Made by a program: the position numbers and the translations under genes. From Bacteroidota bacterium (GTDB taxonomy: Bacteria > Bacteroidota > Bacteroidia > 2-12-FULL-35-15): a DNA stretch of 64,000 nt. The stretch is taken from assembly GCA_029237775.1 (NCBI GenBank), contig JAQZBR010000007.1:124001-188000 (forward strand). The letters are read 5' to 3'. Shown here in pieces: positions 9,056-20,639 of the stretch (positions are counted from its first letter, which is position 1; every line of letters starts with the position of its first letter). Under the pieces are notes generated by a model. It was given only the letters and a program-made list of their open reading frames with translations. It was not told where the DNA came from and did no database searches.

Positions 9056-9084
9056 GTCATCGTGAACTTGTTTCAGGATCTGCG
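9056..9084. repeat. Palindromic end A1 (GTCATCcTGAAC family)
   Basis: 29-base REP-like palindrome at the 3' side of the intact GIY-YIG gene. It differs by one base (CGTG for CCTG) from the copy at 9934. Confidence 0.75.
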
Positions 9085-9371
9085 GGCAAGCCTGACAAAA
9101 TAAGATCTTTCATATCAGGATTAATCGATCTTATTAAATTAAGCTTCCATTTGCGGTGCCAGCGTTTTAATTGCTTTTCTCTTTTAATTGCCCCTTCGAT
9201 ATCAAAAATCCTTTCAAAATAAACCAAAAAGTAAAGTTTATATTTTTTAGTAAAAGTGCAACCCTCATTTGCTTTATGTTGAGCAACCCGTTCTTCGAGG
9301 TCACTTGTAACACCAATGTAGAACACAGTTCTTTTTACATTGCTCATTATGTAAACATATCCTATTTTCAT
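9057..9371 (-). CDS. Small GIY-YIG domain endonuclease (UPF0213-like), intact copy
   Basis: 104 residues forming a single GIY-YIG domain of the short UvrC-like kind. The paired tyrosine motifs are YVYIMSN (5-11) and FYIGVT (17-22); the catalytic Arg is R28 in LEERV and the metal-binding Glu is expected at E59 in the segment before AIKREKQLKRW. The final residues ADPETSSR (97-104) are encoded by the palindromic end of the unit and are not part of the usual domain. A good Shine-Dalgarno AAGGAG lies just before the ATG. Such proteins are predicted nicking or structure-specific nucleases acting on DNA; the true substrate is unknown. The stop overlaps the upstream region of the heme lipoprotein gene. 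Confidence 0.85.
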   Translation of the reverse strand: MKIGYVYIMSNVKRTVFYIGVTSDLEERVAQHKANEGCTFTKKYKLYFLVYFERIFDIEGAIKREKQLKRWHRKWKLNLIRSINPDMKDLILSGLPADPETSSR

Positions 9372-9379
9372 CTCCTTCG

Positions 9380-9408
9380 CGCAGATCCTGAAACAAGTTC
9401 AGGATGAC
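9380..9408. repeat. Palindromic end A2
   Basis: 29-base palindrome, reverse complement of end A1 with one mismatch, directly upstream of the Shine-Dalgarno sequence of the intact GIY-YIG gene. Confidence 0.75.
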
Positions 9409-9428
9409 CGCTAACGCCCGCATTTATA

Positions 9429-9911
9429 TTATTTCAACACCCTGCTCTGCCAGCTGCTTTTAAGAGGCACTTCCCATTCATTCTCGAATGCTGTTTTTGA
9501 AGAGACCATATTATTGAATACGATAGTATTTTCATCAACAGTTTTATTCTCTGCAAGCTTTTCAAATTCGGAAAAAGAAACAGCTTCGATCTTCTCACTT
9601 TTTTTATAAGCGACCTGCATCCTGTCAAAAAAATTGAGATTATATTTCTGCTCAAGCCCTTTTATAAAATGTACAGATTTATCGATGCTGCAACCACTAG
9701 CCAAAGCCTGCTTTTCATCCACAGCTATCACCACAAAACGATCATAAAGGATATCGAATGAAGCTCTCAAAGCAGCTCCATGTGCGCTCCAGTCATTCAC
9801 GAACATTTCACCTTCGTTCTGAATTGATTTTACTTCGGACTCTGATAAAGCCCTGTTGCTTTGATACACCCATAAGCGGGCATCGGGAGGCATGGTTTTG
9901 ATTGAGTTCAT
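9429..9911 (-). CDS. Conserved Bacteroidota protein, often named 'ABC transporter ATPase'
   Basis: 160 residues, soluble, with no signal peptide. The opening MPPDARLWVYQSNR and the central ASGCSIDKSVHFIK are hallmarks of a family restricted, as far as I recall, to Bacteroidota. Databases commonly label it ABC transporter ATPase, but I see no Walker A, Walker B or ABC signature, so that name is unsupported. It is the last member of the MCE / Fe-S / CCG operon on the minus strand. Here it is cut off from the operon by one GIY-YIG unit (9934-10286) and followed by another (9056-9408), so it sits between two direct repeats. Function unknown. Confidence 0.7.
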   Translation of the reverse strand: MNSIKTMPPDARLWVYQSNRALSESEVKSIQNEGEMFVNDWSAHGAALRASFDILYDRFVVIAVDEKQALASGCSIDKSVHFIKGLEQKYNLNFFDRMQVAYKKSEKIEAVSFSEFEKLAENKTVDENTIVFNNMVSSKTAFENEWEVPLKSSWQSRVLK

Positions 9912-9933
9912 TTTTTATTGCTATTGCGGGTTT

Positions 9934-9962
9934 GTCATCCTGAACTTGTTTCAGGATCTGCG
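9934..9962. repeat. Palindromic end A3
   Basis: 29-base palindrome beginning GTCATCCTGAACTTG; the stop codon of the GIY-YIG pseudogene lies inside it. Confidence 0.75.
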
Positions 9963-10249
9963 GGCAAGCCTGTTAATATAAGATCCTTCATTTCGGGATT
10001 CTGAGATCTTATTAAATTTATTTTCCAATCACGATGCCAGCGTTTCAATTGCTTTTCTATTTTGATAGCCTGTTCAATATCAAAAATTATTTCAAAATAT
10101 ACTAAATAATGGAGCTAGTATTTACGCGTGAATACGCAACCTTCACCTGATTTGTGCTGACCAACTCTCTCTTCAAGATCATTCGTAACCCCAATGTAAA
10201 AAACAGTTCTTTTTACATTACTCATTATATAAACATATCCTGTCTTCAT
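9935..10249 (-). pseudogene. GIY-YIG endonuclease with single in-frame TAG
   Basis: Read from the ATG at 10249, the frame encodes 104 codons that align end to end with the intact copy (YVYIMSN, FYIGVTNDLEERVGQHK, then FEIIFDIEQAIKIEKQLKRW and a tail ADPETSSG), but codon 45 is TAG (10117-10115), where the intact copy has Lys. There is no frameshift or deletion. The lesion is therefore a single nonsense change, AAG to TAG at its simplest. The catalytic Tyr and Arg residues are preserved upstream of the stop and the Glu helix downstream. It is either a recently dead gene or, less likely, a readthrough case. Too fragmented to appear as a long open frame. Confidence 0.8.
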
Positions 10250-10257
10250 CCCCTTCG

Positions 10258-10286
10258 CTCAGATCCTGAAACAAGTTCAGGATGAC
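10258..10286. repeat. Palindromic end A4
   Basis: Reverse complement of end A3 with one base changed near its inner edge (GCTCAGATCC for GCGCAGATCC). Confidence 0.75.
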
Positions 10287-10313: not shown

Positions 10314-11102
10314 TTACAAATCCTTCGCCTGTGCGATCAGCTCCGCAACATCCATCACTTTAACAGATGATTCTTTATTGAAATGCTTAACCCCATCTGT
10401 CATCATCGTCATACAGAAAGGACAACCCACTGCGATCACATCCGGATTTAATGCTAATGCTTCTTCCGAACGTTCAACATTCACTTCTTTATTACCTTTT
10501 TCTGCTTCCTTGAACATCTGCGCTCCACCTGCACCACAGCATAATCCATTCTGGCGGCTACGTTTCATTTCAGCAAGCTCAGCATCCAGATTGATCATCA
10601 CAGAACGTGGCGCTTCGTAAACATCATTTCCTCTTCCGAGGTAACAAGGATCGTGAAAGGTGATCTTCTTTCCTTTGAAGTTACCGCCTTCAATTTTAAT
10701 TCGTCCGCTGTTAAGCAGGTCCTGCAGTAGTTGAGTATGATGGATCACTTCATAAGATCCTCCAAGCGAAGGATACTCGTTTTTCAACGTATTAAAACAA
10801 TGCGGACAGCCCGTTACAATTTTCTTCACTTCATAACCATTCAGCACAGTAATGTTTGTCATTGCCTGCATCTGAAACAAGAACTCATTGCCGGCCCTCT
10901 TCGCAGGATCACCCGTACAGCTCTCCTCAGTTCCAAGCACAGCAAACTTCACGTGCGCATGATTTAGGATCTTTACAATCGCTTTAGTGATCTTTTTAGC
11001 GCGATCATCAAAGCTTCCGGCACACCCCACCCAGAATAAAATCTCCGGTGTTTCCCCGCTTGCCATGTAATCGGCCATTGTTCTTATTTGTAATTCAGCC
11101 AT
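10314..11102 (-). CDS. CCG-domain (Fe-S) oxidoreductase subunit, HdrB/LutA-like
   Basis: 262 residues from the ATG at 11102; a GTG further upstream lies inside a dispersed repeat and is not favoured. Two cysteine-rich CCG domains are visible: the first around FWVGCAGSFDDRAK and TEESCTGDPAKR, the second around HDPCYLGRGNDVYEAPR and GLCCGAGGAQMF. These bind a noncubane [4Fe-4S] cluster in heterodisulfide reductase HdrB and related proteins. It is predicted to be the catalytic or electron-accepting partner of the membrane Fe-S protein encoded at 11707-13032, with the HAD gene between them. The electron donor and acceptor are unknown. Confidence 0.85.
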   Translation of the reverse strand: MAELQIRTMADYMASGETPEILFWVGCAGSFDDRAKKITKAIVKILNHAHVKFAVLGTEESCTGDPAKRAGNEFLFQMQAMTNITVLNGYEVKKIVTGCPHCFNTLKNEYPSLGGSYEVIHHTQLLQDLLNSGRIKIEGGNFKGKKITFHDPCYLGRGNDVYEAPRSVMINLDAELAEMKRSRQNGLCCGAGGAQMFKEAEKGNKEVNVERSEEALALNPDVIAVGCPFCMTMMTDGVKHFNKESSVKVMDVAELIAQAKDL

Positions 11103-11112
11103 AATTTTTTCT

Positions 11113-11140
11113 TTTACCACGAAGACGCTAAGGCGCTAAG
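11113..11140. repeat. Dispersed repeat, ACCACGAAGACGCTAAGG type
   Basis: TTACCACGAAGACGCTAAG followed by GCGCTAAG, a short GNCTAAG-type internal repetition just upstream of the CCG-domain gene. Relatives lie at 31179 and 62504. Confidence 0.5.
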
Positions 11141-15712: not shown

Positions 15713-15740
15713 GAGATTCCGTGTCGCAGCACGGAATGAC
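15713..15740. repeat. REP-like palindrome B2
   Basis: GAGATTCCGTG, a 6-base loop TCGCAG, then CACGGAATGAC; near-identical to the palindrome at 20612. Confidence 0.75.
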
Positions 15741-20286: not shown

Positions 20287-20314
20287 GTCATCCCGTGCCA
20301 CGACACGGGATCTC
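20287..20314. repeat. REP-like palindrome B3 (left end of copy 3)
   Basis: GTCATCCCGTGCCACGACACG then GGATCTC; the arms ATCCCGTG/CACGGGAT pair perfectly. Confidence 0.7.
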
Positions 20315-20343
20315 TCAATAATCTTAAACGCAAGAGTCGTTTT

Positions 20344-20596
20344 ATGGATTTAAATAAGGCATATGTTTATATTTTGTCAAACGCGGCAAGAACCGTTTTG
20401 TATATTGGTGTCACTGGTAGTGTGTATACTCAAAAATATAACATACATGATCTTATGTACTTTGAAATCCATAGCGAAATAAAGAGCGCAATAAAAAAGA
20501 GAAAAGCAACTGAAGGAGTGGAAAAGAGAATGGAAGATTGAATTGATCAAAACAATGAATGAAGAAATGGTTGATCTCGCAAAAGACTGGAAATAA
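20344..20596 (+). pseudogene. GIY-YIG endonuclease remnant (internal deletion plus frameshift)
   Basis: The start codes for AYVYILSNAARTVLYIGVTG, a clear GIY-YIG opening. Compared with the intact copy, about 15 codons are then missing, including the helix with the catalytic Arg, and the frame resumes at YTQKYNIHDLMYFEIHSEI. A run of six A (20493-20498) carries a one-base insertion; past it, the correct frame reads REKQLKEWKREWKIELIKTM and ends at TAA 20594-20596 after EEMVDLAKDWK. Without correcting the frame, a 65-residue product would end at 20541. Two independent lesions make this a dead gene. Confidence 0.82.
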
Positions 20597-20611
20597 AAGC
20601 TAAATTTTAGT

Positions 20612-20639
20612 GAGATTCCGTGTCGTAGCACGGAATGAC
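20612..20639. repeat. REP-like palindrome B4 (right end of copy 3)
   Basis: GAGATTCCGTG, loop TCGTAG, CACGGAATGAC; inverted relative to the left end. Confidence 0.75.

Follow-up and report, generated by a model that had tools for sequence, protein, structure and literature searches.

We analysed a 64,000-nucleotide stretch of a Bacteroidota bacterium genome (contig JAQZBR010000007.1, positions 124,001 to 188,000 of the forward strand; hereafter the window), which holds two compact units, each with a small GIY-YIG nuclease gene sitting between inverted copies of the palindrome GTCATCCTGAACTTGTTTCAGGATCTG (here class A; Table 1). Units 1 and 2 have the same length (353 bases each) and the same orientation, and are identical at 286/353 positions. 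Their inverted ends match over 30 nt at 97% in unit 1 and over 27/27 nt (100%) in unit 2, and each terminal hairpin has a stem of 8 bp and a loop of 5 nt; in unit 1, the left stem has 1 mismatch. The gene of unit 1 is tightly enclosed: the left palindrome supplies its TGA and the tail of the right palindrome reaches its AAGGAG-ATG. These results confirm the coordinates, lengths and reading frames given in the original prediction for this stretch, which had described two 353-base GIY-YIG units in the same orientation with inverted palindromic ends.

The unit 1 protein carries the Pfam GIY-YIG domain (Table 1). The residues Y, Y, R, H, E and N, which we take to be the catalytic set of the GIY-YIG fold, are kept across the aligned rows (Y7 in 53/53, Y18 in 55/55, R28 in 54/55, H32 in 55/55, E65 in 55/55 and N84 in 53/54). 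An AlphaFold model of the nuclease (pLDDT 88.4) has UPF0213, the branched-DNA nuclease Slx1 and the UvrC N-domain as its nearest folds, at modest scores and with one PDB match at E <= 0.001. By sequence, the only solved structures found are UPF0213 proteins (E about 1e-3), a further match at E 1.2 being taken as chance, and an NCBIfam search of the nuclease returned nothing above cut-off. On its sequence and predicted structure, we assign the protein to the GIY-YIG nuclease superfamily. A scan of IMG/VR, which detects close relatives only, gave 0 viral relatives, and 10 Rhizobium phage records match the nuclease at about 35% over 72% of the query.

The genes of the two units differ by a nonsynonymous divergence (dN) of 0.11 and a synonymous divergence (dS) of 1.22, and the gene of unit 1 differs from that of the related genome G003 by a dN of 0.17 and a dS of 1.08; the dN/dS of the gene is about 0.09 to 0.16. 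Therefore, purifying selection has acted on both copies for a long time, and the dS excludes a recent tandem duplication of the units. Despite their age, the gene copies were maintained as protein, and their palindromes are still nearly identical. The active decay proposed earlier thus describes the units only in part.

The palindrome forms a repeat family in the home genome (4.08 Mb, 12 contigs). With at most 3 mismatches, GTCATCCTGAACTTGTTTCAGGATCT has 44 matches compared to 0 for the reversed control. Only 4 of the 44 lie at units 1 and 2 and 40 lie elsewhere, so that gene ends are not the only location of the palindromes, a point on which the original prediction had asked for a check. A looser pattern (at most 5 mismatches, in the stretches around matches) gives 48 sites, of which 28 are solo, 16 form 8 dimers and 4 are at the units. 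All dimers (8/8) are head-to-head, with 6 pairing unlike stems and 2 like stems. Outside the units, 4/44 sites fall inside open frames of at least 300 nt, compared to 289/360 control positions. The conserved stretch extends into the tail GCGCG, the outer side being merely G/T-rich, and the tag keeps GTC, preceded in the 28 solo sites by G (19), C (4), T (4) or A (1). An extended outer stem formed by the G/T-rich outer flank and the GCGCG tail was rejected, since pairing between the arms does not exceed that of permuted arms (163/200 permutations are as low).

Repetitive extragenic palindromes (REPs) of the CGTC superfamily have been described in a list of phyla that includes Bacteroidetes (Di Nocera, De Gregorio, Rocco 2013, PMC3733652). 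According to that paper, they have a stem of 8-9 bp beginning AT, a loop of 4-5 nt, an unpaired tag CGTC (or TGTC, CCTC), a 3′ tail that is mostly CCA, and dimers that are mostly head-to-head. The class-A palindrome shares the 8-bp stem beginning AT, the 5-nt loop, the unpaired GTC tag, the head-to-head dimers, the intergenic location and the occurrence in Bacteroidetes. It differs in its tag, which is mostly GGTC, and in its 3′ tail, which is (C)TGCGCG and not CCA. Judged by its sequence, we place the class-A palindrome among the REPs of the GTC-tagged (CGTC) superfamily. In the 2013 paper, CGTC repeats have no dedicated transposase, do not flank tyrosine transposase genes and have only fortuitous links to other transposases (PMC3733652); here, in contrast, the repeats go together with a GIY-YIG gene.

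The window also contains a third unit, with different ends. It likewise spans 353 bases and holds remnants of a GIY-YIG gene; its ends (GTCAT[C/T]CCGTG..CACGG[G/A]ATC) are, however, unlike the palindrome of units 1 and 2. Because this palindrome, class B, is the one that surrounds a separate GIY-YIG gene of the home genome (C5:198224, 58% identical to the window protein), the third unit represents a different subfamily. Its other palindrome and other subclade rule it out as a decayed copy of the family of units 1 and 2, the lineage in which it had been placed. At class-B sites at genes, the first tag base is mostly C or T. On C5 of the home genome (L003 1261-2660), repeated class-B REP dimers that share a similar spacer form an array, and the intact class-B GIY-YIG gene lies inside it.

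Table 1. Features of the window discussed in the text (positions are those of the window).
Feature	Position	Strand	Remark
Unit 1	9056..9408		353 bases; palindrome, GIY-YIG gene, inverted palindrome
Unit 1 left REP hairpin	9056..9082	+	one stem mismatch; encodes the final residues and stop of the gene
Unit 1 GIY-YIG nuclease gene	9057..9371	-	intact, 104 codons; PF01541, E 7e-15
Unit 1 right REP hairpin	9382..9408	-	tail GCGCG abuts AAGGAG-ATG of the gene
Unit 2	9934..10286		353 bases; architecture of unit 1, gene with one in-frame TAG
Unit 2 left REP hairpin	9934..9960	+	
Unit 2 GIY-YIG frame	9935..10249	-	single internal TAG; 83% identity to unit 1 protein
Unit 2 right REP hairpin	10260..10286	-	
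Third unit	20287..20639		353 bases; class-B palindrome at each end; GIY-YIG gene badly decayed and from another subclade
Third unit left class-B palindrome	20287-20314	+	
Third unit right class-B palindrome	20612-20639	-	
Solo class-B REP	15713..15740	-	variant with T-A as third stem pair; no GIY-YIG gene nearby
Flanking gene	9429..9911	-	conserved; unmatched in Pfam and NCBIfam; borders the syntenic slot of unit 2 on one side
Fe-S (heterodisulfide-reductase-like) protein gene	10314..11120	-	conserved; opposite side of the slot of unit 2

The pairing of nuclease and palindrome extends well beyond this genome. Small GIY-YIG loci were gathered from 59 related genomes, from named contigs and by region, leaving out the weakest related-genome matches and one UvrC-like match. 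Of 127 gene matches, 112 are full length; the other 15, 8 of which have a GTCA-tagged hairpin within 400 bp, were excluded from the density count. The density of such hairpins is 2.28 per kb up to 300 bp from the 112 genes, 0.20 per kb further off and 0.04 per kb in shuffled DNA. After setting aside 8 of the 112 genes without enough flank to count both sides (n = 104), 47 genes have a hairpin on some side, 27 on both sides and 22 on both sides in inverted orientation.

On the protein tree, a single clade accounts for nearly all palindrome-associated genes (43/54 inside compared to 5/58 outside). With seven named genes added, the proportions are 50/61 and 5/58 and the clade support is 93 (119 proteins), the seven having been scored as present by hand from palindrome inspection, by eye only for Novosphingobium. 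The five palindrome classes A to E cluster on the tree, with 0/500 shuffles as low for each class; the numbers of rows and changes are 8/2 for B, 8/5 for A, 9/4 for D, 6/3 for C and 12/7 for E, on a tree of 103 columns in which many forks are open and near-copies help any label to cluster.

The clade of 61 includes a homologue from Neisseria gonorrhoeae (39/94 aligned residues identical), whose gene, carried by a record of chromosome size that is classed as a plasmid, is ringed by 16 CGTC palindromes forming CGTCATTCCC... hairpins and which we presume to be the Ssn nuclease. The Ssn family, reportedly described in Nature Communications in 2025, comprises GIY-YIG nucleases that are reported to cut a repeated target (the NTS in Neisseria) site-specifically and only in single-strand DNA, and the Neisseria enzyme reportedly modulates transformation. 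As a side observation, two 2.17-Mb, chromosome-sized N. gonorrhoeae records are filed as plasmids in PLSDB (NZ_CP119140.1 and NZ_CP119142.1).

Could the gene simply be a passenger at an ordinary REP hot spot, where REPs that act as terminators or mRNA stabilisers have gathered between genes? The 40/44 REP sites away from the units that lie outside open frames of at least 300 nt fit this explanation, as do the slots described below that collect other repeat types (Sphingobium TYG65 and TYG72; G018 and G032). A hot spot does not predict, however, that the association is confined to one GIY-YIG clade, and the clustering of palindrome type by protein subclade speaks against a passenger gene. We therefore regard a hot spot as improbable. 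A GIY-YIG nuclease as the REP-associated enzyme, the central proposal of the original prediction, is supported by the clade restriction, the clustering of classes by subclade and the presence or absence of units in relatives. The palindrome appears to be the recognition site of the nuclease itself.

Gene and palindrome were also counted in 36 genomes of the genus, one per species, with palindrome A scored at no more than 2 mismatches. Palindrome A is present in 39, 26, 6, 2 and 2 copies in the five genomes with gene A and in 0 to 6 copies in the 31 without it. Palindrome B is present in 4 to 161 copies in the seven genomes with gene B; the 29 without it have 66, 37, 26, 6, 2 and 2 copies, and the rest 0.

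These genomes also bear on whether a REP-associated tyrosine transposase (RAYT) elsewhere in the genome moves the REPs, with the GIY-YIG gene carried along as in a composite transposon. RAYT-REP units are the known precedent (PMC3733652), and Y1 transposase genes (PF01797) are common, occurring in 29/36 genomes of the genus and once in the home genome (C5:278584-278928). Nevertheless, they do not track the palindromes, and we reject Y1 transposases as the movers. No Y1 match at E 0.001 was found in the palindrome-rich genomes G028 (26 A, 37 B) or G010 (63 B), whereas G015 has 11 Y1 matches yet one class-A and no class-B palindrome. Among the matches with at most 3 mismatches, no class-A palindrome lies within 59 kb of the Y1 gene of the home genome. 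In addition, the 2013 paper reports that CGTC repeats do not flank tyrosine transposase genes (PMC3733652), and a passenger gene leaves the match between REP type and GIY-YIG subclade unexplained. Taken together, a RAYT is the least probable of the explanations considered here, and very unlikely. One genome, G021, has 10 Y1 matches, and the Y1 genes of the genus may have REPs of their own.

Next, we compared orthologous sites. The slot of unit 2, between the flanking gene and the Fe-S protein gene (Table 1; all NCBIfam matches of the latter are below their cut-offs), is kept across the genus, and 24 loci have both flanks. A whole unit is found in this slot in G000, G028 (gene broken) and G003. 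The G033 slot holds a head-to-head REP dimer and no gene, the G009 slot one ordinary class-A REP and an imperfect REP-like stretch, and the remaining 19 slots short or other DNA (among them an unread 974-base slot in G027). Remnants of other GTC-tagged palindromes are found in the G018 and G032 slots. The slot of G014 (L080) contains tandem copies of the unit GTTTCACCTATATTGC..GCAATATACCCGTAACAA instead of the REP unit.

Sites with and without a unit are also found in named relatives. In Sphingobium, the slot between fnrL and a response regulator has the unit in 7 records and lacks it in 4 (by coverage; 3 of the 7 unit-bearing and all 4 unit-free records were aligned). In TYG64 and TYG74, the empty site holds a single palindrome that has both outer ends, with stem changes in TYG74, and in TYG72 and TYG65 the slot has other inverted repeats. 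Sinorhizobium Ak57 has an intact gene and the 3′ piece of another between REPs; K101 has neither, and its empty form is one double-ended palindrome with a left tag reading CTC. In Azospirillum lipoferum 4B (L226, 1486-1779), a GIY-YIG gene and its CGTC REPs separate sufB from sufC in the suf operon, and three Azospirillum relatives (95.5-96.7% identity) have neither gene nor REPs there; the junction is not clean because about 50 bases of the relatives' spacer are unmatched in 4B. No palindrome is seen at the empty site in the Azospirillum relatives and in most slots of the genus. Empty sites in relatives, a check that the original prediction had proposed, thus exist in the genus slot, Sphingobium, Sinorhizobium and Azospirillum, and gain or loss of whole units is supported.

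A double-ended palindrome is what would result from joining the outer halves of both terminal REPs. The double-ended empty forms of Sphingobium and Sinorhizobium thus suggest loss of the unit by recombination between its ends or, in the opposite reading, represent the form before insertion.

Class-B palindromes vary in a similar way. Between G018 and G009 (88% identical), three slots have class-B REPs in G018 only and one site is common to both; of 14 class-B sites in G018, 8 have no assignable slot in G009, 5 are in three slots that have no class-B REP in G009 and 1 is in a block aligned between the two. At one place, both genomes have a class-B unit with the gene in opposite orientation (L176, G018 C3:43029-43500; L181, G009 C7:1127079-1127720), as expected of flipping between inverted palindromes. 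Three class-B palindromes in G018 (C12:364544, 364658 and 364772) follow an exact period of 114 bases.

On a Candidatus Roizmanbacteria contig (MGAO01000020.1; L054 4001-4262 and flanks), class-A palindromes bound a broken-looking GIY-YIG frame that adjoins a gene read, from its letters and with no search, as peptidyl-tRNA hydrolase. This REP-gene-REP arrangement suggests cross-phylum transfer or contamination of the metagenome-assembled genome (MAG). A clade member on plasmid p1 of Planktothrix agardhii (L228, 1501-1785), with TGTCATTCTGAG... palindromes, lies between a gene for an MmeI-type restriction enzyme and the DISARM gene drmA.

By analogy, the unit is best read as a putative Ssn-type GIY-YIG nuclease, packaged with its cognate REP as REP-gene-REP. 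The pairing of nuclease and REP is well supported. As a whole, we think the following account probable, in which the enzyme of a gene enclosed by inverted copies of its own cognate CGTC REP would nick as Ssn enzymes do and spread via the REPs. The REP would form a hairpin where it is single-stranded, which could be on the lagging strand, in incoming DNA or after extrusion; the enzyme would recognise this hairpin and nick it sequence-specifically, as the Neisseria Ssn nucleases reportedly do. More tentatively, host repair of the nicked REP against another REP copy might copy REPs, and occasionally whole units, to new sites, in a spread comparable to that of a homing endonuclease. Units would be lost by recombination between the two terminal palindromes, which may leave one double-ended palindrome. 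Both nicking and mobilisation by the nuclease are inferred, mobilisation more weakly. A bolder version would make the GIY-YIG nucleases of this clade the missing mobiliser of CGTC-type REPs. REP-gene-REP units would then be minimal autonomous elements that nick single-strand REP hairpins and are copied into further REPs or into single strands that happen to be exposed. Their non-autonomous offspring would be the solo REPs and head-to-head dimers, and excision, by joining the outer halves of the terminal palindromes, would leave double-ended scars. We consider this version possible and rather doubtful.

A number of observations weigh against the probable account. No exact double-ended class-A palindrome, as an excision scar would be, is present in the home genome, and two candidates with 2 mismatches proved to be ordinary REPs. 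The empty forms of Sphingobium and Sinorhizobium are readable as loss. Target-site duplications were not seen by eye in the G018/G009 and named-relative comparisons, where most flanks are too diverged, nor was a clean base-level insertion junction, intergenic DNA being too diverged between species even at 88% identity. Among the clade members, 11/61 have no detected palindrome, although the detector overlooks hairpins that are imperfect, scoring L050, L031 and L035 as none despite their GTCA-tagged inverted flanks. Only class B is near a single origin on the tree, and class A is not one branch. The association tests in the genus (p 4e-4 and 2e-5) ignore relatedness and count the units' own palindromes. 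Palindrome B occurs without a found cognate gene in G003 (66), G028 (37), G035 (26) and G016 (6), with G028 89% and G016 80% complete. Finally, G003 has gene A yet only the two palindromes A of its own unit. All six palindromes A of G033 lie within C3:34758-40821 around the unit; the patterns in G003 and G033 fit recent arrival and local spread, other histories being possible.

A rival explanation is a domesticated host system, in which the nuclease acts on REPs for the host, limiting uptake or recombination of DNA or processing stalled forks or hairpins, while the REPs spread in some other way and the unit itself is not mobile. Such a system keeps the pairing of nuclease and REP and differs from the account above on mobility only; we give it somewhat less than an even chance. 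It fits the long purifying selection on the gene, the small number of genes (three small GIY-YIG genes and one remnant in the home genome, compared to 44 class-A REPs), the location of most REPs far from any GIY-YIG gene and the reported effect of the Neisseria enzyme on transformation. Less expected of a host system are the presence or absence of units at orthologous sites, the insertion of a clade gene between sufB and sufC, and the class-A palindrome with a broken-looking frame in a distant phylum (in a MAG).

The window units resemble the Ssn systems in having a small single-domain GIY-YIG protein and a cognate GTC-tagged palindrome present in many copies, also around the gene, and the N. 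gonorrhoeae member shares the clade of the window protein. They differ in that exactly two inverted copies close off the gene in a unit of 353 bases, which occupies two neighbouring slots and varies in presence between species. RAYT/REPtron systems with GTAG REPs likewise have an enzyme gene flanked by inverted REPs, REPs scattered elsewhere and co-variation of enzyme and REP; the window enzyme is, however, a GIY-YIG protein and not an HUH-Y1 transposase, the defining feature of those systems. The GIY-YIG homing endonucleases I-TevI and I-BmoI share the catalytic fold and a gene that may sit in its own recognition sequence, whereas the window unit has no intron or intein that we could see, no separate DNA-binding domain and only 104 residues.

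We found no literature linking GIY-YIG nucleases to REPs, in a search whose partial coverage makes this weak evidence of absence. The novelty claimed in the original prediction was nonetheless overstated. An Ssn nuclease was reportedly paired with its repeat in 2025, and the mobility aspect of the GIY-YIG/REP pairing may be new. CGTC REPs, including those of Bacteroidetes, were described in 2013, in a catalogue that left the enzyme that spreads them, if any, open (PMC3733652). The clade restriction, the clustering of REP types and the empty sites lead to a testable one-enzyme, one-hairpin hypothesis for GTCATCCTGAACTTGTTTCAGGATCTGCGCG and other hairpins, for which the natural pairs A, B, C, D and E serve as internal controls of specificity. 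Should the enzyme move the REPs as well, it would represent a second, unrelated solution to the RAYT-REP partnership.

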